A stretch of 64,000 nucleotides of DNA from Actinomycetota bacterium (GTDB lineage: Bacteria; Actinomycetota; Thermoleophilia; Gaiellales; Gaiellaceae). Positions 15,529 through 25,607 of the stretch are shown here, in pieces. The position numbers were made by a program, and so were the translations under genes. The notes beneath the pieces are model-generated. The model worked only from the letters and a program-made list of their open reading frames with translations, ran no database searches and had not been told where the DNA came from. How positions within the stretch are numbered: position 1 is the stretch's first letter; each line of letters opens with the position of its first letter. Location of the stretch: NCBI GenBank assembly GCA_009702325.1, contig WLID01000001.1:1-64000 (forward strand), read 5' to 3'.

Positions 15529-16245
15529 GTGGCAACTGGTGCCTACCTCCTCAACCTCGGCGTTGTTGATTACCACGAGGCGTGGGCGTTACAGCGCTCG
15601 CTCGCAGCAGCCGTAACGCAGCGGGCGATCCCCGACACGATCCTGCTTCTCGAGCATCCACCAACGGTGACGCTCGGGCGGCGCACCGATGACGGCGAGC
15701 TCCACGTTCCCGCCGACGTCGCCGTCGATGTCGTCGAGACCGACCGGGGTGGCAAGTCGACGTTCCACGGGCCCGGCCAGCTTGTCTGCTACCCGATCCT
15801 TGACCTCCACCGGTACGGCAAAGACGTCAAGAAGTACTGCCGCGACCTCGAAGAGGCCGTCATCCGCACAACTGCCGCCTTTGAGGTTGAGACAACCCGG
15901 ATCGAAGGCCTCACGGGTGTGTGGCTTGAGCGGCCACCTCGCAAGATCGCGTCGATCGGGGTTCACATCCGTCGCTGGGTCACAACGCACGGGTACGCCC
16001 TCAACGTCGATCTCGACCCCGCGCCGTTCACCGAGTGGATCACGGCGTGCGGGCTCGAAGACGCGCAGTTCACCTCACTTGCCCGCGAAGCCGGACGAGC
16101 GATCACCGTCGACGAGGTTCGCGGGGCGGCAGCAGCCGCGCTCGCCGACGTGTTCGACATCGAGCTCGACGAGCTCCCCGCAGACAGCTTTGTGGGTACG
16201 GGGCTCTGGGCTCAGCCACGCCACGAGTCGCTCTCCGCGCGTTAG
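15529..16245 (+). CDS. lipB: Octanoyltransferase LipB
   Basis: A 238-residue enzyme that moves octanoate from acyl carrier protein to lipoyl domains. RGGKSTFHGPGQLVCYPI holds the RGG motif (73-75). The catalytic pair is K139 in RKIASIGVHI and C174 in ITACGL, both present. The start is a GTG at 15529, 24 bases after the E2 stop, so lipB is in the dehydrogenase operon. The last four bases overlap the end of the convergent histidine kinase gene. Confidence 0.96.
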   Translation: MATGAYLLNLGVVDYHEAWALQRSLAAAVTQRAIPDTILLLEHPPTVTLGRRTDDGELHVPADVAVDVVETDRGGKSTFHGPGQLVCYPILDLHRYGKDVKKYCRDLEEAVIRTTAAFEVETTRIEGLTGVWLERPPRKIASIGVHIRRWVTTHGYALNVDLDPAPFTEWITACGLEDAQFTSLAREAGRAITVDEVRGAAAAALADVFDIELDELPADSFVGTGLWAQPRHESLSAR

Positions 16246-17948
16246 GTCGGCTGAGCGCCGCCCGCCGGCACCACGACACGGAACGTCGACCCATGACCCT
16301 CGGTGCTCGTCACCCTGATCGACCCATGGTGGGCCTCGACGATCGTCTTCGCGATATAGAGACCAAGCCCCGTTCCTTGCACCGCGTCCTTCAACGAGCG
16401 CGACGAACGAAAGAACCGGTCGAAGAGATGCTGGAGGTCGGCCTCGGGAACACCGACACCGTCGTCCTCGACCTCAACCTCAACACTGTCACCCTTGCGC
16501 TCAACGCGAATCGCGACATGGCCGCCCGGAGGCGTGAACTTCACCGCATTCGCGACCAGGTTGTCGATCGCCTGACCGAGGCGGACAGCGTCGCCAACGA
16601 CATAGGTGTTGCCGACAGCCTCGAACGTGATGCTCAATCCGCCCGCCGCCGCGACCGGGCGAATAGTGTCGACCGAATGAGCGACGACAGCTCGCAGCTC
16701 GACCGTATCGCTTCGAAGCTCCAGCCGACCTTCGCCCAGACCTGCGGCGAAAAGCAGGTCGTTCACAAGCCGCAATAGCCGATCGGTGTTGCGAGTGACG
16801 ACGTCGAGATCATCCTTCTGCGCCGCGGTAACGGGGCCGCTCGCCCCGTCAGCAAGCAGCTCCACGTACCCAACGATGGAGGTCAACGGTGTCCGCAGCT
16901 CATGCGACACGCTCGCCACAAAGTCGTCCTTCATGCGATCCAACTGACGGAGCTCACGGTTCTGTTGCTCAACGACGCGAAGCAGACCCGCAAGGCGAAG
17001 CAGCACGAGCACGGCGATCAGAGCGGCACCGCCCGCCGCAACGAGCGTGTGCACGTGATGGTGCTCCAGCCGCTCGGTCGCCAGTACCGCTGGCACCGCC
17101 AGCAACGCCGCCGCGAGAACAGCAAGCCGCACACCGGAAAGACGTTGTGGCGCGACGGGCACGGTCGCGACCTCCGTTCGCACACCACGCCTGAGCGCAG
17201 CCGCGCCGAGCGTGACGTACGACCCCAACCAACCGATGTCGATCCATGTTCCCGAGTCGTACTGCGGTGTCAGCAGGAAGATCTCGTCGGAGATGAACAG
17301 CAGGAAGATCGAAACGCCAATCATGCGATACGGCACCGACCGCCGCTTCGGCCCAATCACAAGCTGGATCAACGCAACGAGAACAAGCACGTCGAACGAC
17401 GGGAGTGCGATCTCATCGGCCTTGCGCAACGACGAGAGCGACTCGTTCACGAGCGACTCGACAACGAACACCCACTGCACCGTCGCGAGCGCGACCACAA
17501 CAATCACTGCGTCAAGAATCACCGCGCGGCTCCACTGCGCCCCGAGCTCACGGAGCAACACAAAGATGCCGATGGCGAAGATGAGCGCCCCACCGATGTA
17601 GAAGACGTCGGCGGCCGACGGGGCCGGCGGCTCCTGGTCTCGATACAGCTCGTAGTACGCCGTGATGCAGTCACCGGTCACCTCGCTGGCGAGCCCGGCA
17701 GCGAACAGCCACCAGGCCGGTCGCGGCTCGGCCGTTCGGCGGGCGAGGCCGACCATGATCGCCCCGATACCGGCAAGGCCAACAACCTCGTACGCGATCG
17801 ACTGCACGTCGCCCGCAAGCAGCTCGTATCCGAACACCGCGAGCCACCCCACTGCAAGGAAGCCAATCGACGCCGGCGATAGCCCCCTGATCCACCGCAC
17901 GAGCGGCCGCTGTGAAACAGCACCGCTTGTGAACGCCCGTGTGTTCAT
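16242..17948 (-). CDS. Membrane sensor histidine kinase (second of a tandem pair)
   Basis: A 568-residue two-component kinase. Residues about 25-330 form some eight or more membrane segments, an apparently intramembrane sensor without a recognisable PAS or extracellular domain. HisKA follows with the phospho-acceptor H349 in SVSHELRTPLTS. The ATPase domain has the N box DNLVANAVKF, G1 DDGVGVPEADL and G2 GTGLGLYIAK. Its start overlaps the stop of the upstream kinase by four bases (ATGA), so they are translationally coupled. It is a clear paralogue of that kinase. No response regulator lies nearby. The signal is unknown. Confidence 0.93.
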   Translation of the reverse strand: MNTRAFTSGAVSQRPLVRWIRGLSPASIGFLAVGWLAVFGYELLAGDVQSIAYEVVGLAGIGAIMVGLARRTAEPRPAWWLFAAGLASEVTGDCITAYYELYRDQEPPAPSAADVFYIGGALIFAIGIFVLLRELGAQWSRAVILDAVIVVVALATVQWVFVVESLVNESLSSLRKADEIALPSFDVLVLVALIQLVIGPKRRSVPYRMIGVSIFLLFISDEIFLLTPQYDSGTWIDIGWLGSYVTLGAAALRRGVRTEVATVPVAPQRLSGVRLAVLAAALLAVPAVLATERLEHHHVHTLVAAGGAALIAVLVLLRLAGLLRVVEQQNRELRQLDRMKDDFVASVSHELRTPLTSIVGYVELLADGASGPVTAAQKDDLDVVTRNTDRLLRLVNDLLFAAGLGEGRLELRSDTVELRAVVAHSVDTIRPVAAAGGLSITFEAVGNTYVVGDAVRLGQAIDNLVANAVKFTPPGGHVAIRVERKGDSVEVEVEDDGVGVPEADLQHLFDRFFRSSRSLKDAVQGTGLGLYIAKTIVEAHHGSIRVTSTEGHGSTFRVVVPAGGAQPT

Positions 17949-19630
17949 TCGGCCGCACTCCGCGGAAGCGTCACCTGGAAGCGCGCCCCACCCACGGCGC
18001 TGTTTGTGGCCGCCACCGAGCCGCCATGCGCCTCGACGATCGTCTGGACGATGTAGAGACCGAGGCCCGTGCCAGAGATGCCACTCGTGACGGCACCCGA
18101 CGAGCGGTAGAACCGGTCGAACACCCGCCCCAGCTCGTCGTTCGGAATACCGGGGCCCGTGTCAACAATTTCGACGAACGCTGCATGAGCCGCCTTCCAC
18201 ACGGACACCGTCACCGTGCCCCCCGCGGGCGTGAACTTGACCGCGTTCGCAACGAGATTGTCAACCACCTGCCCCAGCCGATCCGGGTCGGCCGGGATAG
18301 CAACGTTCGATTCGATGCGACTCGCGATAACGATGTTCTTCCCATCGGCAGCAGGCCGAGCCGCCTCAACCGCCAGATGCACGATCTCGCCAAGGTCAAC
18401 TGGTGCCGAGGAAAGAACGAGCGAGCCGCGCTGCACCGACGCCGCGAACAGCAGATCATCGACCACGCCGAGCAGACGATTCGTGCTGCGACGAATCACC
18501 TCAAGATGGCCATATCCCGATGTAGCGGGAACAAGACCACCGTCCTCTTCAAGCAGCTCCGTGTATCCAGCGATCGAGGTGAGCGGTGTGCGCAGTTCAT
18601 GCGAGACGCTCGCAACGAACTCATCCTTCAAGAAGTCGAGCTCGCGAAGCTCCCGGTTTTGATGTTCCGACTCTCGCAGCAGGAGCCATAGGCGTGCGAA
18701 GACGAAGCCCGCGACGAGCGTCATCCCTACCGCCGCCGCGAGCGCATGCTGGTGGCCATGACGGAACACAAACTCGCCGAGCAGGGTCACCGGGGTCAGC
18801 ATCAGCGCCGCGGCAAGCAGGATCACCCGGATTCGTCGAATCGCCGGGGAGGGGGCTCCATCGGCCCCCATCGTTGTTGGCGGCTGAAGCCCAACCGCCC
18901 CGAAGAACACGTAGGAGATCAGCCAGAGCGCGTTCACCCATGAGTCGGCAGAGTAGGTGGGTGCGACGAAGTAGAACTCGTCGGCAGCGACCATCGCAAT
19001 AACGGCGACCGTCAGCAGCCGCACGCGGGTGGCGTGACGCGTCGGCCGAACGGTGAGCTGAAGTACGAGGACGAGCAAGATCACGTCGAGCGACGGGTAG
19101 GTCATGTCGACCGCGGTCTCGCCGAACGCATAGCCCTGGTGCCTCACACTCTCGAGAACGACCATCCATTGCACCGTCGAGAACGCGACGAGGAAGACGA
19201 GGACGTCGAGAAGCGCCGCGAGCTGCCGTACAACACGCATGCGGTAGACCCCGATGAGGAGCCCCGCAATCCACGCGCAGTAGCCGCTGATGTACACGAC
19301 GTCGATGAGCGACGGGGAGAGCACTTCGCGGTGATCAACAAGTTCTGTCCACGTGTCGAGCCAGTCGCCCAGCACCTGGCAGACGAGTCCGAACGCGATG
19401 AACGCCCACGGCAGACGCGTCCCTTGGTCAGCCCGTGACACACCCACGATCGCTGCGAGCGCTGCCCCGCTCCCGATCACCTCAAACGCAACCTGTTGCA
19501 CCGAGCCCGACAGCAGGAAGTACGTCCCTATGGCGACGCCTGAAGCAGCCAGGTAGGCAGCGGTCGTGACGCTAAGGCCGAAGAGGACTGGTCGTCCCAC
19601 CTCGCGAACGGGTGTCGTCGTCGCACTCAC
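17945..19630 (-). CDS. Membrane sensor histidine kinase (first of a tandem pair)
   Basis: A 561-residue paralogue of the following kinase with the same plan: about eight hydrophobic helices (residues 15-325), the HisKA helix with H344 in SVSHELRTPLTS, then HATPase with DNLVANAVKF, DTGPGIPNDEL and GTGLGLYIV. The sensor halves share landmarks such as a G.W/GDW acidic turn after the third helix, STVQW, and DEFYF/DEIFLL before a YDSGTW/YSADSW loop. This indicates duplication of the whole gene. Its start is 97 bases from the divergent lipA start. Heterodimerisation with its partner is possible. No cognate regulator is visible. Confidence 0.93.
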   Translation of the reverse strand: MSATTTPVREVGRPVLFGLSVTTAAYLAASGVAIGTYFLLSGSVQQVAFEVIGSGAALAAIVGVSRADQGTRLPWAFIAFGLVCQVLGDWLDTWTELVDHREVLSPSLIDVVYISGYCAWIAGLLIGVYRMRVVRQLAALLDVLVFLVAFSTVQWMVVLESVRHQGYAFGETAVDMTYPSLDVILLVLVLQLTVRPTRHATRVRLLTVAVIAMVAADEFYFVAPTYSADSWVNALWLISYVFFGAVGLQPPTTMGADGAPSPAIRRIRVILLAAALMLTPVTLLGEFVFRHGHQHALAAAVGMTLVAGFVFARLWLLLRESEHQNRELRELDFLKDEFVASVSHELRTPLTSIAGYTELLEEDGGLVPATSGYGHLEVIRRSTNRLLGVVDDLLFAASVQRGSLVLSSAPVDLGEIVHLAVEAARPAADGKNIVIASRIESNVAIPADPDRLGQVVDNLVANAVKFTPAGGTVTVSVWKAAHAAFVEIVDTGPGIPNDELGRVFDRFYRSSGAVTSGISGTGLGLYIVQTIVEAHGGSVAATNSAVGGARFQVTLPRSAAE

Positions 19631-20657: not shown

Positions 20658-21242
20658 GTGCGCCGAGCTGCTCTCTGGTTGCTTTCGCTGTCTCTCACGG
20701 TTGCGGGGACAGAGGCTGCGCACTGGGTCGCCTTCCGGCTGACCTACCCCGACCCGCGCATGCGCGCTGAGGCGCTCGCCGGATCCGGTCACCACTACTT
20801 GCAGCTGATGCCAACGGTGCTCTCGCTCGCCGGTGCGCTCTCCGTCGTGCTGCTCGCGACACGGACGTTCTCGAACCGGCCAAGCGCACTTCGCATCTCG
20901 CCTACGTTCTTCTTCCTTCTCGCACCCGCCTGCTTCATCGTCCAGGAATGTGGCGAGCAGCTGGCCGCCGGCACATCCCCACTCGCAGCGCTTGGCGCAG
21001 CCACTTTCCTTCCCGGACTTGCTCTCCAACTACCGTTCGCCGGCGCCGCCTATGCGCTCGCACGTCTATTGCTTCGCGCGGCATCTGAACTTGGCCGCCT
21101 CCTCAGCGCTGCCCTCCGCACCCGCCTTCGTGCCGTCGCAATCACCTTGCGACCCGCGGGTCACGACGCACCGCCTCGCGCTCGACTCCTTGCTGCGTCA
21201 GCATCGGGCCGCGGCCCGCCTGCAGCACTCGTGAACGCCTAG
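20658..21242 (+). CDS. Small membrane protein of the copper-type cluster (paralogue A)
   Basis: A 194-residue protein with about four membrane helices and a basic Pro/Arg/Ala-rich C-terminal tail. The GTG start at 20658 is 9 bases after the lipA stop. Aligned with the second paralogue at 23.1 kb without gaps at the N-terminus, both keep E19, H22, Y30-P31-D32 and S43-G44-H45-x-Y47. Both also keep a later QE segment and LPGLALQLPFA. Conserved His and Glu near the membrane suggest metal binding or transport. I do not recognise a named family. Its position directly before the CopC-CopD fusion is the only functional clue. Confidence 0.75.
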   Translation: MRRAALWLLSLSLTVAGTEAAHWVAFRLTYPDPRMRAEALAGSGHHYLQLMPTVLSLAGALSVVLLATRTFSNRPSALRISPTFFFLLAPACFIVQECGEQLAAGTSPLAALGAATFLPGLALQLPFAGAAYALARLLLRAASELGRLLSAALRTRLRAVAITLRPAGHDAPPRARLLAASASGRGPPAALVNA

Positions 21243-21412
21243 TTCGTTCGGCCGCCTGAAGCGGCCACCTCGGCGTTCGCCCGTCGGTGCCCTCACGTGC
21301 GTGTGCGCGAGTGCCCACCCGATTCTTCCGGGTGGCCATCGGCCCACACCGGCACGCCTCCCGACCCCTCCGTCGGGTGGGCATTCGCGCCTGCGCATGC
21401 GGGGCCGCCGAA
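21243..21412 (+). promoter_or_regulatory. Structured leader before the CopC-CopD gene
   Basis: This 170-base gap contains three short hairpins: GGCCGC/GCGGCC (21250-21266), CCACCCG/CGGGTGG (21315-21335) and CCGAC/GTCGG (around 21360-21375). The second is a 7-bp perfect stem with loop ATTCTTC. No T-run follows any of them. They may terminate the upstream gene or form an RNA leader. No known metal-riboswitch pattern was recognised. Confidence 0.35.
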
Positions 21413-23071
21413 ATGAAGAGATTCGACCACCACCTCACTCTCCGACGCACCGGTCGGCAAACCGGTGCCGCAGCCGCGTGCGCGCTCGTCGTCACGTGCG
21501 TAGTCGTACTCGCCACACCACCCATGGCCCGCGCGCACGCTGCCCTCCTGCGATCGACGCCAGCCTCCGACGCCACCCTCCGGCACGCGCCACACACGGT
21601 GTCGCTCACCTTCGACGAATCCGTCAGCGTCGCTCCAAATGCGCTGGAGGTCTACGACCGTTTCGGTACTCGGGTAGACAGCGGAATCATCACGGGGGCC
21701 GGCACGGCCACCATCGCAACGACGATCACTGACGCCTCGGATCGCGGGACGTACACCGTTGCATGGAGGGTCACCTCCGCCGACTCCCACGTCATCCACG
21801 GCGCCTTTGTGTTCTCCGTCGGGACAACGACCGCCACACGAGCGGCCGAGTCGTCGGCGACCAGCCCCTCGATCATCCCCCATGCATTCGCCATCACACG
21901 CATCGCAAGCCTGGCCGCCCTGCTCGTCTGCTTGGGAGCGATCGCGATCCTCCTCATGCCGGAATGTCGCGGCAGATCTCACGCCTCGGTCATGGCGCTC
22001 GCCCACGGCTCCGCGCTCCTGCTCGCTGTCACGAGCATGGCGGGCATCGTGCTCCAGGCGGCAGAGATGGTCGGCGGCGGAGTCCGAGCAGGGCTCACAC
22101 ACTCGGCACTCGGCGCGGTAGCGCACACCCGCTTTGGAGAGCTCTGGGCGCTCCGAGCCGCCTGCGCGTTCGCGATCGTCGTGGCCTCGTCGGGACTCCG
22201 CACCAACGCGGGCCGTCAGCGACGAGCACTCTTGCTCACCTCGGCGGTCACGATCGGGCTTGCAACCCCGCTCGCCGGCCATTCGGGACTTCGTTGGACA
22301 ACCGCGTTCGCCGACACCGTCCACCTCCTCGCCGCCTCCGTTTGGGTTGGTGGCCTGGCCGCCACAGCAGTCGCGTTCATCTCCGACGCAGGCGACGAGA
22401 CGCGACGTCGCCTACCTCGCCGGTTCTCGAAGCTCGCGGGCACCTCCGTCGTCGCCCTCGGTATCTCCGGCGCAGTCGACGCGTATCTCGAAATCGGAAC
22501 AGTCGATGCACTGCTGCAGTCGACGTACGGACGGCTCGTCGACGCAAAAACGCTGCTCCTCGTGCCCGTGCTGATGCTTGGGCTCCTGAACCGGCGTTCT
22601 CTTCGCTCGCGCACGGGTCGCGATCGACGCTTCCTCCAGCTCGCGCTTCCGGAGCTTGGCCTGCTCGCAGTGGTCATTGCGTTGAGCGGTGTTCTGGTGG
22701 GGACATCGCATCGTCAACCCTCTGGCGAGCGGGATCGGGCGGCTCCGTCCAACACGTTGCCGATCGGCCCATTCGAGGCGACCGTCACGATCGACAGCGC
22801 GGGCGAGCACCAACCGCGGATTGCCGTTGCACTCATGGAACACGGGACGCCGGCACGCGCCGATGACGTCCAGATCGCCGCATCGCTCGACAACCCCCGA
22901 CTCGGGCCCCTGCGCTTCCGTACCACCCGAAGCGGCCAAGGACGGTTCACCGCAGTCCGAGCCCGGCTTCCGATCCCTGGAAGCTGGCACATCACGGTTG
23001 TGATTCGACGTGGCGACTTCGACCAGTGGGAAGGCACGACGACATTCGATATTCCGGCGGGGGCGCGTTGA
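21413..23071 (+). CDS. CopC-CopD fusion copper resistance/import protein
   Basis: A 552-residue fusion. The signal peptide ends PMARA before H42, then comes a CopC domain (residues 42-135) with the copper ligands expected of CopC: the N-terminal His (H42) and D124/H126 in SADSHVIHG. About eight membrane helices of the CopD type follow (residues 150-440; HSGLRWTTAFADTVHLLAASVWVGG is the CopD His segment). A C-terminal exported beta domain (about 465-552, YtkA-like in character) completes it. The ATG at 21413 is preferred over an upstream ATG-less extension because it places the signal peptide at the N-terminus. The stop overlaps the next gene region. The family moves or binds copper at the cell surface. 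Confidence 0.9.
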   Translation: MKRFDHHLTLRRTGRQTGAAAACALVVTCVVVLATPPMARAHAALLRSTPASDATLRHAPHTVSLTFDESVSVAPNALEVYDRFGTRVDSGIITGAGTATIATTITDASDRGTYTVAWRVTSADSHVIHGAFVFSVGTTTATRAAESSATSPSIIPHAFAITRIASLAALLVCLGAIAILLMPECRGRSHASVMALAHGSALLLAVTSMAGIVLQAAEMVGGGVRAGLTHSALGAVAHTRFGELWALRAACAFAIVVASSGLRTNAGRQRRALLLTSAVTIGLATPLAGHSGLRWTTAFADTVHLLAASVWVGGLAATAVAFISDAGDETRRRLPRRFSKLAGTSVVALGISGAVDAYLEIGTVDALLQSTYGRLVDAKTLLLVPVLMLGLLNRRSLRSRTGRDRRFLQLALPELGLLAVVIALSGVLVGTSHRQPSGERDRAAPSNTLPIGPFEATVTIDSAGEHQPRIAVALMEHGTPARADDVQIAASLDNPRLGPLRFRTTRSGQGRFTAVRARLPIPGSWHITVVIRRGDFDQWEGTTTFDIPAGAR

Positions 23072-23088
23072 GCAGCGCTCGCCCACTG

Positions 23089-24207
23089 GTGCGGCGCCGA
23101 CTCGCCTGGGCGCTCGCGGTACCGCTGATTGCGACATCGCTTGAGGTTGCGCACGCCGCGAGCTACCAGCTCGTGTACCCCGACGGCCCGGGCCGAGCCC
23201 GGGTGCTTGCGCTATCCGGCCACGGCTACGAAAGGCACTTCCCTGCGGTCGCCGCGCTCCTCGCGAGCGTGCTTGTAGGTGCGCTCCTCGCACGCATCTT
23301 CACACCCCGGCGCCCTGGGCTCATGTCGATCGACGCGCGTGTGTTCTTCGCGCTTCCGCCCACCGCCTTCGTGCTGCAGGAGGCGCTTGAACTCGTGAGC
23401 GCGGGGCAGGCGCCGTACGACGTCGCTCTAAGCCCCGTGCTTCTCCCCGGACTTGTGATGCAACTGCCGTTCGCGGCCCTCACCTGGTTCGTCGGACATC
23501 TCCTCGTGGACGCGGCCGATGTCGTTGCGCATGCGATTCGGTGCATTCCGCGAGTCGCGCTGCACGTGTTCGTAACGCGCCTCACATCCAACCGACACGA
23601 ACTTCCGCCTCGGCGACCACCGACCTCAGATGCACATCCGCGCGGACCTCCCACACGCGTCAGCTCGCGTTCGGGCGTGCCGCACCCGCGGCGACGCCCC
23701 TTTGACCTGACCATCTCAGGAGGTTTCACGATGCACAGGCCCTTGGCCCTCGTAGTTGTCTTTGCCGTTCTCTCGCTCGCCTCGGTGTCGGCGGCACTCG
23801 CTCACGCCCGTATCTCGAACAACGGCGTGACGATGACGCTGCATGTCGATCCAAACGACGAGCCCGTAGCGGAGGCACCCTCGACGCTCGTGATCGAGTC
23901 TGTTGAGGTTCAGCCCGCGTTCTCGTGGTCGTCGTGTGGTTGCACGCTGACGGTGAGCGACGGTGCCGGCAAGGTCGTCTACGCAGGGACTGCCGCGGCG
24001 CGTGTGACGGTCACGTTTCCGTCAGCCGGCGCGTACCAGGCCACCTACGCCGGGCGCACACCCGTCACGACCAAGTCGACCGTCATGAAGACGGTGATGA
24101 AGCTCGTGAAGGGCAAGAAGAAGAAGGTCTCGGTTCCAACCGTCGTGACCACGACTGCCACGACGGCGTTCTCGATTCCGTTCGCGTTCCGGGTGGATCC
24201 AGCGTGA
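23089..24207 (+). CDS. Membrane protein (paralogue B) read through in frame into an exported protein
   Basis: The GTG at 23089 gives an N-terminus that aligns residue for residue with the protein at 20.7 kb: E19, H22, Y30-P31-D32 and S43-G44-H45-x-Y47. A TTG at 23068, overlapping the previous stop, is the other option. The four-helix part ends near residue 160, and a Pro/Arg/Ser-rich tail follows as in the paralogue. No stop codon occurs before the next gene, which is in the same frame. The full product would be about 372 residues: a membrane domain, a linker, an internal signal-peptide-like helix, then the exported domain. Either this is a real fusion with an internal start, or the stop was lost by mutation or sequence error. 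Confidence 0.65.
   Translation: MRRRLAWALAVPLIATSLEVAHAASYQLVYPDGPGRARVLALSGHGYERHFPAVAALLASVLVGALLARIFTPRRPGLMSIDARVFFALPPTAFVLQEALELVSAGQAPYDVALSPVLLPGLVMQLPFAALTWFVGHLLVDAADVVAHAIRCIPRVALHVFVTRLTSNRHELPPRRPPTSDAHPRGPPTRVSSRSGVPHPRRRPFDLTISGGFTMHRPLALVVVFAVLSLASVSAALAHARISNNGVTMTLHVDPNDEPVAEAPSTLVIESVEVQPAFSWSSCGCTLTVSDGAGKVVYAGTAAARVTVTFPSAGAYQATYAGRTPVTTKSTVMKTVMKLVKGKKKKVSVPTVVTTTATTAFSIPFAFRVDPA
23718..23730 (+). promoter_or_regulatory. Strong ribosome binding site for the internal start at 23731
   Basis: AGGAGG at 23718-23723, seven bases before the ATG at 23731. It is among the best Shine-Dalgarno sites in the window. It argues that the exported protein is translated independently, although the upstream frame is still open through it. 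Confidence 0.85.
23731..24207 (+). CDS. Exported protein with predicted N-terminal His and CGC motif
   Basis: A 158-residue protein with a clear signal peptide ending SAALA before H25. The predicted mature protein starts HARISNNG. A beta-rich domain follows, with an isolated C69-G-C71 in SWSSCGCTLTV. A Lys-rich, Thr-flanked loop (residues about 105-125, KGKKKKVSVP) comes next, and the chain ends with FSIPFAFRVDPA. The N-terminal His, as in CopC and YcnI, and the CGC pair suggest copper binding. The fold resembles YtkA-like or CopC-like Ig domains by eye only. The name and function are unknown. It lies between CopCD and YcnI genes on the same strand. Confidence 0.75.
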   Translation: MHRPLALVVVFAVLSLASVSAALAHARISNNGVTMTLHVDPNDEPVAEAPSTLVIESVEVQPAFSWSSCGCTLTVSDGAGKVVYAGTAAARVTVTFPSAGAYQATYAGRTPVTTKSTVMKTVMKLVKGKKKKVSVPTVVTTTATTAFSIPFAFRVDPA

Positions 24208-24236
24208 GTCTCCAGGCAACTGAAAGAAGGCACTCC

Positions 24237-24797
24237 ATGCTCAGGAAGTCTCGGGTTCGACTGTTGGTGTTTGGGGCAGCCGCTGTTGCGGCACTTGCGG
24301 TTGGTATTCCGCTCGCCTCGGGTCATGCGACGCTCACGCTGCTGTTCCCGGTTCCTGGGACACAGCCGTTGACGGCGGCAACTGATACGTGGTTGTTGCG
24401 CGTCCCGAACGAGCGGTATCACCGTTCAACCTGGAAGGTCGTTCTGCACATCCCGGCTGTTGCGCAGAGTTCATTTACGCTCCGCCAGCACCCGGGCTGG
24501 AAGACGACGCTGACGACCCAGGACACGGGTGCGAAGGACGGGAATGGCGACCCGGTGTCGGTTGTCACGGATGTCACGTGGCAGGCGTTGCCGGGCAACA
24601 ACATCGGACCCGGAACCGCTTGGTACGGCGAGTTCCAGTTCCGATTCAAGAACCCCGCCACACCGGGGCCGGTCTGCTTTCACGTCGACCAGTACTACAA
24701 CGGTCAGACCAAGGGGGCTCCGGTTGAGGTTGTGAGTTGGGCTGACGGAGCAGGGACAGCTCACCCGGCGCCATGCGTCAACGTCGTCTCAAGCTAA
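24237..24797 (+). CDS. YcnI-like (DUF1775) exported copper-binding protein
   Basis: A 186-residue exported protein. The signal peptide ends PLASG before H30, so the mature N-terminus reads HATLTLLFPV. TWLLRVPNERYHRSTWKVVLHIP, QHPGWKTTL and YGEFQFRFKNP are DUF1775 landmarks. YcnI proteins bind Cu(II) with the N-terminal His in a histidine-brace-like site. Two cysteines (about C147 and C170) could form a disulfide. An AGAAGG site precedes the ATG at 24237. Unlike many YcnI proteins it has no C-terminal membrane anchor. The next gene overlaps its end by 25 bases. Confidence 0.85.
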   Translation: MLRKSRVRLLVFGAAAVAALAVGIPLASGHATLTLLFPVPGTQPLTAATDTWLLRVPNERYHRSTWKVVLHIPAVAQSSFTLRQHPGWKTTLTTQDTGAKDGNGDPVSVVTDVTWQALPGNNIGPGTAWYGEFQFRFKNPATPGPVCFHVDQYYNGQTKGAPVEVVSWADGAGTAHPAPCVNVVSS

Positions 24798-25441
24798 CGG
24801 CGAGGGGGTGGGGGGACGGTTCGCCGTCCCCCCACCTCGTCACGCTTGTTGCGGCCGTGGCCGTCGCGTTGATCGCTTCTGCGGTCGCGTCGGCCCATGC
24901 GATCGTGCTGCCTGCGGCGTCGCGTCCGGCCGACCTTCAGCGGTACACCCTGACGGTTCCGAATGAGCGGGATGTGCCGACGATCTCGGTGGCGCTGCAG
25001 GTTCCGGCGGGTATCTCGTTCTTCCTTGTGGAGACGGCGCCTGGCTGGACGGTGTCGATCCACAAGACGGACGGGCATGTGGATGTGGTGCGTTGGACGG
25101 GAGGCGCGATCCCGGTTGATGGGTTCGCGACGTTCCGTGTTCTCGCGCGAAACCCGATTGCGGCGGTGCCGATCTCGTGGAAGGTGTTGCAGGGCTATGC
25201 GGGTGGTGAGATCGTGCGGTGGATCGGGTCGCCCGACTCTGACACGCCCGCACCTGTGACAGAGATCACGGAGCAGGCGGTGCCAACCGACGTGATCGAT
25301 GTGCAGGGCGGAAAGGTCGTGCCGAACGTTGTTGCGGAAGCGGCGGCCCGCCGTTCACGCGACGCGCTGCCCCGCTACCTCAGCGTCGTCGCAGTTGTTC
25401 TCGCTGGTGCGGCACTCGTGCTCACGATCCGGAGGCGGTAA
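24773..25441 (+). CDS. Membrane-anchored DUF1775/YcnI-like protein
   Basis: A 222-residue second DUF1775 protein. The signal peptide ends AVASA before H42 (mature HAIVLPAAS). RYTLTVPNERDVPTISVALQVPAGI and AETAPGW-like ETAPGWTVSI match the family better than the preceding copy does. One membrane helix (about residues 198-218) and a final RRR anchor it outside the membrane. The proposed start overlaps the upstream gene by 25 bases, so translation is coupled; a start further in would cut into the signal peptide. Two different YcnI-type proteins in a row suggest a copper relay, which is an inference. Confidence 0.85.
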   Translation: MRQRRLKLTARGWGDGSPSPHLVTLVAAVAVALIASAVASAHAIVLPAASRPADLQRYTLTVPNERDVPTISVALQVPAGISFFLVETAPGWTVSIHKTDGHVDVVRWTGGAIPVDGFATFRVLARNPIAAVPISWKVLQGYAGGEIVRWIGSPDSDTPAPVTEITEQAVPTDVIDVQGGKVVPNVVAEAAARRSRDALPRYLSVVAVVLAGAALVLTIRRR

Positions 25442-25452
25442 GCCCACCCGAC

Positions 25453-25607
25453 CCCCAACTCTCACCCCGGTGTCAGACACCTATTGCTGTCAAGCGGCTC
25501 TTCGGGACATTTGCGAAATGTGTTTCAGGCAAACCGCGCGGAGAAATGTTTCAAAGATGATCCATTTGCCCCTTGACACAAAAAGGTGTCTGACACCGCA
25601 GTTGGGG
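25453..25607. repeat. REPIN/MITE-like 155-bp inverted repeat
   Basis: The ends are inverted: CCCCAACT (25453-25460) with AGTTGGGG (25600-25607), and GGTGTCAGACACC (25469-25481) with GGTGTCTGACACC (25585-25597), each itself a palindrome around one base. TGTCAAG (25488-25494) pairs with CTTGACA (25572-25578). The centre has ACATTT-GCG-AAATGT. It is visibly more AT-rich than its neighbours. It has the layout of two inverted REP units mobilised by a RAYT-type transposase, which is not in the window. It sits between convergent genes and may also end transcription. Confidence 0.8.

Follow-up and report, generated by a model that had tools for sequence, protein, structure and literature searches.

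The present analysis concerns a copper-type gene cluster located at positions 20,658 to 25,441 of a 64,000-nt stretch of DNA (hereafter the window; forward strand of contig WLID01000001.1, positions 1 to 64,000, assembly GCA_009702325.1) from an Actinomycetota bacterium of the family Gaiellaceae. Directly 3' of lipA, and on one strand, lie m1, copCD, m2, U, Y1 and Y2, an arrangement that most likely represents an operon composed of an arrest gene (m1), copCD, a second arrest gene (m2), U and two ycnI genes (Y1 and Y2). The first gene starts with GTG immediately past the lipA stop, and the better start of m2 is the TTG at 23068, which overlaps the copCD stop. No sigma-70-type promoters were found within the operon, the Rfam search of its leaders returned no known RNA element, and no ycnK-type repressor gene was found among its genes. 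The features are as follows:

20658..21242, forward strand: m1, four-helix membrane protein of 194 amino acids (aa), putative RGPP arrest peptide heading copCD
21210..21221, forward strand: RGPP codons of m1 (CGC GGC CCG CCT)
21284..21409, forward strand: very stable leader hairpin in the m1-copCD gap, its right arm ending just 5' of the copCD start
21413..23071, forward strand: copCD, YcnJ-like CopC-CopD fusion (Pfam CopC and CopD), predicted mature N-terminus His42
23068..24207, forward strand: m2, second member of the four-helix family (by identity in the family core), its frame running without a stop into U
23641..23652, forward strand: RGPP codons of m2 (CGC GGA CCT CCC), which include GGACCTCC, complementary to the Shine-Dalgarno of U
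23718..23724, forward strand: Shine-Dalgarno of U (AGGAGGT)
23731..24207, forward strand: U, orphan exported protein with a modelled beta-sandwich, predicted mature N-terminus His25, second invariant His38
24237..24797, forward strand: Y1, YcnI/DUF1775 protein (Pfam DUF1775) without a C-terminal anchor, predicted mature N-terminus His30
24773..25441, forward strand: Y2, YcnI/DUF1775 protein (Pfam DUF1775) with a C-terminal transmembrane anchor, predicted mature N-terminus His42

The membrane proteins m1 and m2 share 35% identity and belong to one family. Neither matched Pfam (E up to 1) or NCBIfam, and Foldseek with the m1 model returned nothing at E 0.001; membership in DUF2946 was rejected given this lack of a Pfam match, and CXXC is also absent from both translations. 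The AlphaFold2 model of m1 (predicted local distance difference test, pLDDT, 87.5) is helical with a loose tail; m1 is under 300 aa with a four-helix model, and m2 up to its RGPP is likewise a small protein with transmembrane segments. Using an m2 query devoid of its C-terminus, we recovered the family in 27 of 101 genomes (the window's own genome and its near relatives), and a full-profile search placed it in 63/399 genomes of the class and 51/396 of the phylum; its named relatives are metagenome-assembled genomes of uncultured Actinobacteria, Thermoleophilia and Gaiella. The family is, in other words, spread through Actinomycetota. Its near-invariant residues comprise a His in helix 1 (66/67 members) and two Glu in helix 3 (QExxE; 66/67 and 67/67), and a His in the GHxY of the first outer loop is kept in 85% of members. 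As judged from this pattern, the His/Glu/Glu set within the helices is a candidate copper sensor. In the window genome a further family gene (C1:373371-373940) precedes a multicopper oxidase gene. The same genome also contains a distant RGPP membrane open reading frame (ORF; C1 near 205178-205897, L064:5179-5898) with GHGY, QETLEE and an RGPP 7 aa before its stop, which heads the other ycnI-copCD operon (exported protein, second His-first exported protein, lipoprotein, YcnI and CopC-CopD).

The family is further characterized by its C-terminus. In m1 the RGPP sits 6 aa before the stop, and R[GA]PP was observed in 30/30 complete members of the set found with the C-terminus-free query, 3-11 residues (usually five) before the stop except in m2, and preceded by a linker that is variable despite the conservation of the motif. 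A helical-core profile identified 70 members in the fetched loci, and all 66 with a nearby stop end in RGPP (38), RAPP (27) or RSPP (1), the motif lying 1-12 residues before the stop (versus 19/3179 background ORFs); the remaining closed member is m2, in which RGPP is present and the frame continues into U. RGPP and RAPP are strong, EF-P-resistant stalling motifs that proteomes avoid, and RGPP is reported as the four-residue sequence avoided most in many phyla. They are found close to the C-terminal end of small proteins that are secreted or membrane-bound, show enrichment in front of YcnI and PCuAC genes, and cause ribosome arrest in seven Streptomyces lividans proteins (some encoded before metal genes, with a four-helix one before a metal-related gene) (PMC12992588). 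In addition, the RAPP-type motif of CruR keeps a copper operon on (PMC9426467). Arrest peptides of the RGPP/RAPP type encoded before copper genes are a known class, described experimentally in 2022-2025 (CruR and the seven S. lividans peptides). In the window, m1 lies directly upstream of copCD and m2 directly upstream of U, on the same strand. Starting from what the sequence, its conservation in the family and the order of the genes show, we infer arrest, copper sensing, a direction of control and copper exchange, and we consider it likely that m1 and m2 are copper-responsive arrest peptides, read during their synthesis and controlling the genes behind them.

The original prediction had regarded m1 and m2 as membrane partners in a copper relay, a role that explains them less well than the hallmarks of arrest peptides (RGPP near the C-terminus and a position upstream of copper genes). 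If they were stable partners passing Cu(II) from CopC-CopD, U and the YcnI proteins, then RGPP would be incidental or a docking motif. The proximity of the genes, the near-invariant His/Glu/Glu in the helices and the ability of Bacillus subtilis YcnI and YcnJ to exchange Cu(II) (PMC12154828) all speak for such a function; we nonetheless regard it as improbable, as a motif reported to be the most avoided and proven to stall (PMC12992588) is here universal near the stop (as RGPP, RAPP or RSPP), and as the variable linker, together with the tight spacing and proline codon bias described below, fits regulation in cis better than docking.

The genes downstream of family members encode DUF1775 proteins, CopC-CopD, multicopper oxidases and small HxHGYD cupredoxin-like proteins, and a small-x-small-His signature is found in 39/58 of the exported proteins at this position. 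This cargo bears on whether the peptides might monitor Sec/YidC capacity (in the manner of SecM and MifM) instead of copper, so that exported copper genes would be matched to export. RAPP-type peptides upstream of sec genes do act in this way (PMC10987492, PMC12992588), and four-helix substrates with a C-terminal arrest motif have the same build; yet copper proteins lie downstream in nearly all assignable loci, no sec or yidC gene was seen there, and near-invariant His and Glu within helices are unnecessary for plain monitoring, which makes this explanation quite unlikely.

Two groups of exported proteins were noted in these loci. Small proteins with an EVHLHGYD-type motif lie downstream of an RGPP gene in L052, L057, L060, L062, L072 and L077 (one of them with a weak Cupredoxin_1 match), and in L052, L062 and L072 they are followed by another membrane protein (AHG...DLPVPxWLF or similar); the EVHLHGYD-type protein and the adjoining membrane protein may constitute a new copper pair. 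Among other phylum members (L137-L157) we noted a widespread His-first exported family (HEER..VGWxxEPxYxGxxN) with a C-terminal anchor, often encoded behind an RGPP membrane gene; for two proteins of this family Pfam gave no match above the cut-off. Homology of U to these proteins was rejected, the hhalign match being mostly signal peptide.

At the level of nucleic acid, the distance from the RGPP codons to the next start has a median of 81.5 nt (interquartile range 77-95) in 58 relatives, whose starts and Shine-Dalgarno sites were picked by a simple script. The first arrest proline is encoded by CCT in 23/67 members (34%), as against 25/170 (15%) for [GA]PP elsewhere (P 0.001), and in 21/49 clusters at 50% identity (43%, P 9e-5); a CCA bias at the same proline was discarded, its excess having disappeared against [GA]PP in other genes, where the CCT bias remained. 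Furthermore, the pairing of arrest codons to the downstream Shine-Dalgarno exceeds the synonymous expectation (P 0.014), the Shine-Dalgarnos downstream of the family show lower accessibility than control ones (P 0.0015), and their gain in accessibility on masking is larger for the stall site than for an upstream stretch (P 0.003), all P values here overstating independence because family members are related. In the window, the CGC GGA CCT CCC of m2 pairs with the AGGAGGT of U in the predicted fold, and the m1-copCD leader (region 21200-21440) folds at -126.9 kcal/mol (z -5.2, 0/200 shuffles) into a hairpin that reaches the copCD start region. C-rich, G-poor stretches, which mark the Rho site in CruR, reach a maximum close to each of the two stall sites (99.8th and 99.9th percentile within the window), as they do near the stall site on the family average, and, taken with the Shine-Dalgarno pairing, they make translational opening and blocked Rho termination both possible.

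Several observations weigh against this reading. The search that collected members from across the phylum used a profile covering the C-terminus, unlike the one behind the first 30; the Shine-Dalgarno statistics are modest and derive from members that are not independent; and the codons for Arg and Pro account for part of the C-richness. With the stall site of m2 itself masked, the accessibility of the Shine-Dalgarno rises from 0.14 to 0.40 in the shortest fold alone; in longer folds, owing to competition by a local hairpin, it goes from 0.15 to 0.12, so that the effect is not robust. Moreover, a stop shortly after the motif is present in all complete members but m2. The direction of control could also be reversed, with outer copper delaying insertion, prolonging the stall and turning protective copper-binding genes on, as in CutF, where a stem-loop shields the Shine-Dalgarno (PMC9973294); the multicopper oxidase behind one family member of the window genome would suit such a logic. 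We consider it possible but doubtful, given that in B. subtilis CopC-CopD and YcnI have a role in acquiring copper (PMC13344008, PMC12154828) and that a strong RGPP arrest relieved by copper fits CruR (PMC9426467).

With respect to the exported proteins, the original prediction held that four in the cluster carry a His right after a signal-peptidase-type site, and translation reproduced these residues exactly, the predicted cleavages being PPMARA|H42 in CopC-CopD (start 21413), AALA|H25 in U (start 23731), PLASG|H30 in Y1 (start 24237) and AVASA|H42 in Y2 (start 24773). CopC-CopD matched Pfam CopC (4e-22) and CopD (4.1e-17) over the cut-off, its C-terminal domain receiving no assignment, and both YcnI-like proteins matched DUF1775 (Y1 1.8e-13, 51.5 bits; Y2 2.3e-15, 57.7 bits; cut-off 25). 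His42 of Y2 aligns with residue 1 of mature B. subtilis YcnI (7me6, E 1.5e-22), with conservation of the PNE and W that supply the Glu and Trp of the monohistidine brace; the alignment of Y1 with YcnI begins at residue 45 and retains E and W, its His30 being read from the sequence. Similarly, His42 of CopC-CopD aligns with residue 1 of YcnJ-CopC (9c14) and of other CopCs (including 6tpb), and its ADSH with the D.H of the CopC brace. The small-x-small-His signature is kept in 14/14 DUF1775 and 13/13 CopC homologues of related genomes and in 3/3 U proteins, which argues that the first-residue His pattern is not due to chance. The claim that CopC and YcnI use this His as a brace-type Cu(II) ligand, and with it their role in handling Cu(II), is likewise supported by homology, conserved ligands and literature (PMC8424229, PMC12154828), and the N-terminal His of the CopC and YcnI proteins studied here would, by homology, be a copper ligand. 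As YcnI and YcnJ (the CopC-CopD protein) of B. subtilis exchange Cu(II) (PMC12154828), an extracellular copper relay among the exported proteins is, by analogy, plausible. A series of four with new members had also been put forward as non-standard: it is a variant of a cassette (U-YcnI-YcnI recurs in two other genomes), and His-first exported proteins are the usual cargo downstream of the membrane family.

The remaining member of the series, U, had no Pfam family over the cut-off and no match in a scan of named genomes, and was confirmed in three genomes only (its own and the relatives G067 and G238); two further weak matches (G153 and G325) were not confirmed by phmmer. In G067 and G238 the U gene precedes Y1- and Y2-like genes. 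His25 and His38 (13 residues on) are invariant in all three proteins, and a CxC is common to just two. The structure model of U (pLDDT 70) is a beta-sandwich whose best VIA-align rows are the copper proteins P19/FetP (Z 9.6, root-mean-square deviation 4.2 Å over 110 residues), with CrdA, PmoD and CopC ranking below (Z 6.7-7.9); Foldseek with this model gave no match at E 0.001. The likeness to P19/FetP is only suggestive, the quality of the model being limited. In G238 a different small membrane ORF (L086:2071-2505, reverse strand), ending in ...PRGGRLIASALAVRPPPAAPATL, lies upstream of U and may be an analogous arrest gene.

Under the preferred reading, in which m1 and m2 are arrest peptides, both would act mainly during their own synthesis, being inserted into the membrane while the ribosome stalls at the C-terminal RGPP. 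The helix-1 His, the two helix-3 Glu and the His of the GHxY loop would form the probable site at which copper is read at the outer face, and a stall at m1 would control copCD and one at m2 U-Y1-Y2. Because the arrest codons of m2 are also the anti-Shine-Dalgarno of U, a ribosome stalled on m2 would cover this element (about 75 nt upstream) and could free the start of U; alternatively, as in CruR, the stalled ribosome may block Rho at the C-rich, G-poor stretches present at both stall sites. Copper binding would fold the sensor domain, releasing the stalled ribosome and shutting off the genes that follow, a copper-off logic (as in CruR) that fits genes of copper acquisition. Finally, mature CopC-CopD, U, Y1 and Y2 would use the N-terminal His to bind Cu(II), which they would pass among one another on the outer side of the membrane.

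The m2-U junction adds a further layer. U lies in the same open frame as m2, with no stop between them, and has its own Shine-Dalgarno (AGGAGGT at 23718). The loss of the m2 stop through a single sequencing slip was considered and set aside, the other two frames (read by eye) having no stop near the expected place. The even number of helices in m2 and the signal sequence of U suggest that a read-through product could be cleaved at ALA|H, giving the same mature U by either route. A more comprehensive scheme combines phylum-wide four-helix nascent copper sensors (intramembrane His/Glu/Glu), in which arrest codons serve as anti-Shine-Dalgarno, with an m2 fused to its target frame through the lost stop, U being made by initiation during the stall or by read-through and internal cleavage after release; in its entirety we put this forward as a tentative and rather speculative proposal.

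Among described systems, the closest are the S. lividans RAPP/RGPP peptides SLIV_18480 and SLIV_16130 (Fujiwara et al. 2025, PMC12992588), which are also small membrane or secreted proteins with the C-terminal motif, encoded upstream of copper-related genes (most upstream ORFs of YcnI-family genes are reported to encode transmembrane segments, PMC12992588). By its description SLIV_18480 resembles m1 and m2 in having four transmembrane segments and a predicted copper site (PMC12992588), but this site is reported to consist of three His and one Met, whereas the m1/m2 family has His, Glu, Glu and a loop His; furthermore, unlike in S. lividans, two members occur here in one operon, one of them in frame with the next gene. 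CruR of Bordetella pertussis (PMC9426467) shares the upstream position, the C-terminal RAPP motif, the copper operon and a C-rich/G-poor stretch near the arrest site, but is a DUF2946 protein with CXXC, in contrast to the four-helix m1 and m2, which have neither. CutF of Rhodobacter capsulatus (PMC9973294) is likewise an exported protein that senses copper as a nascent chain, with a Pro-rich motif at the C-terminus and a stem-loop shielding the next Shine-Dalgarno; it differs in being small and secreted, with Cys in its copper motif, in that strong stalling was not shown for it, and in that the anti-Shine-Dalgarno here lies inside the arrest codons. The ycnKJI operon of B. subtilis (YcnJ being CopC-CopD-YtkA; PMC12154828, PMC13344008) has the CopC-CopD fusion, YcnI and N-terminal-His Cu(II) sites in common with the window, exchange having been shown in B. 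subtilis, but not the two YcnI proteins, the orphan U or the two RGPP membrane genes. The membrane proteins m1 and m2 are thus most likely of a known kind (copper-responsive arrest peptides) in an unusual arrangement, with two such peptides in one operon, one in frame with its target, and with arrest codons that can double as anti-Shine-Dalgarno.

In the surroundings of the operon, two near-palindromes (GGTGTCAGACACC and GGTGTCTGACACC) flank a 129-nt stretch right after Y2 (25469-25597); two were found versus 0.10 expected in the window, and they are perhaps a small inverted-repeat element or a terminator. On the far side of lipA (16242-19630, reverse strand), two adjacent and similar membrane sensor histidine kinases are encoded beside the operon.

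Whether arrest controls the gene that follows, and by what means, was left open by the 2025 survey that found RGPP peptides ahead of YcnI-type genes, and the window together with its relatives provides a testable proposal in this respect, comprising a narrow spacing, an anti-Shine-Dalgarno codon bias at the arrest site and a near-invariant His/Glu/Glu candidate sensor set. It also calls for caution, in that the 'unknown membrane partners' of similar clusters may have a regulatory role for which the finished protein does not have to be maintained. Moreover, copper proteins with an N-terminal His would be linked by it, throughout Actinomycetota, to a single mode of control.

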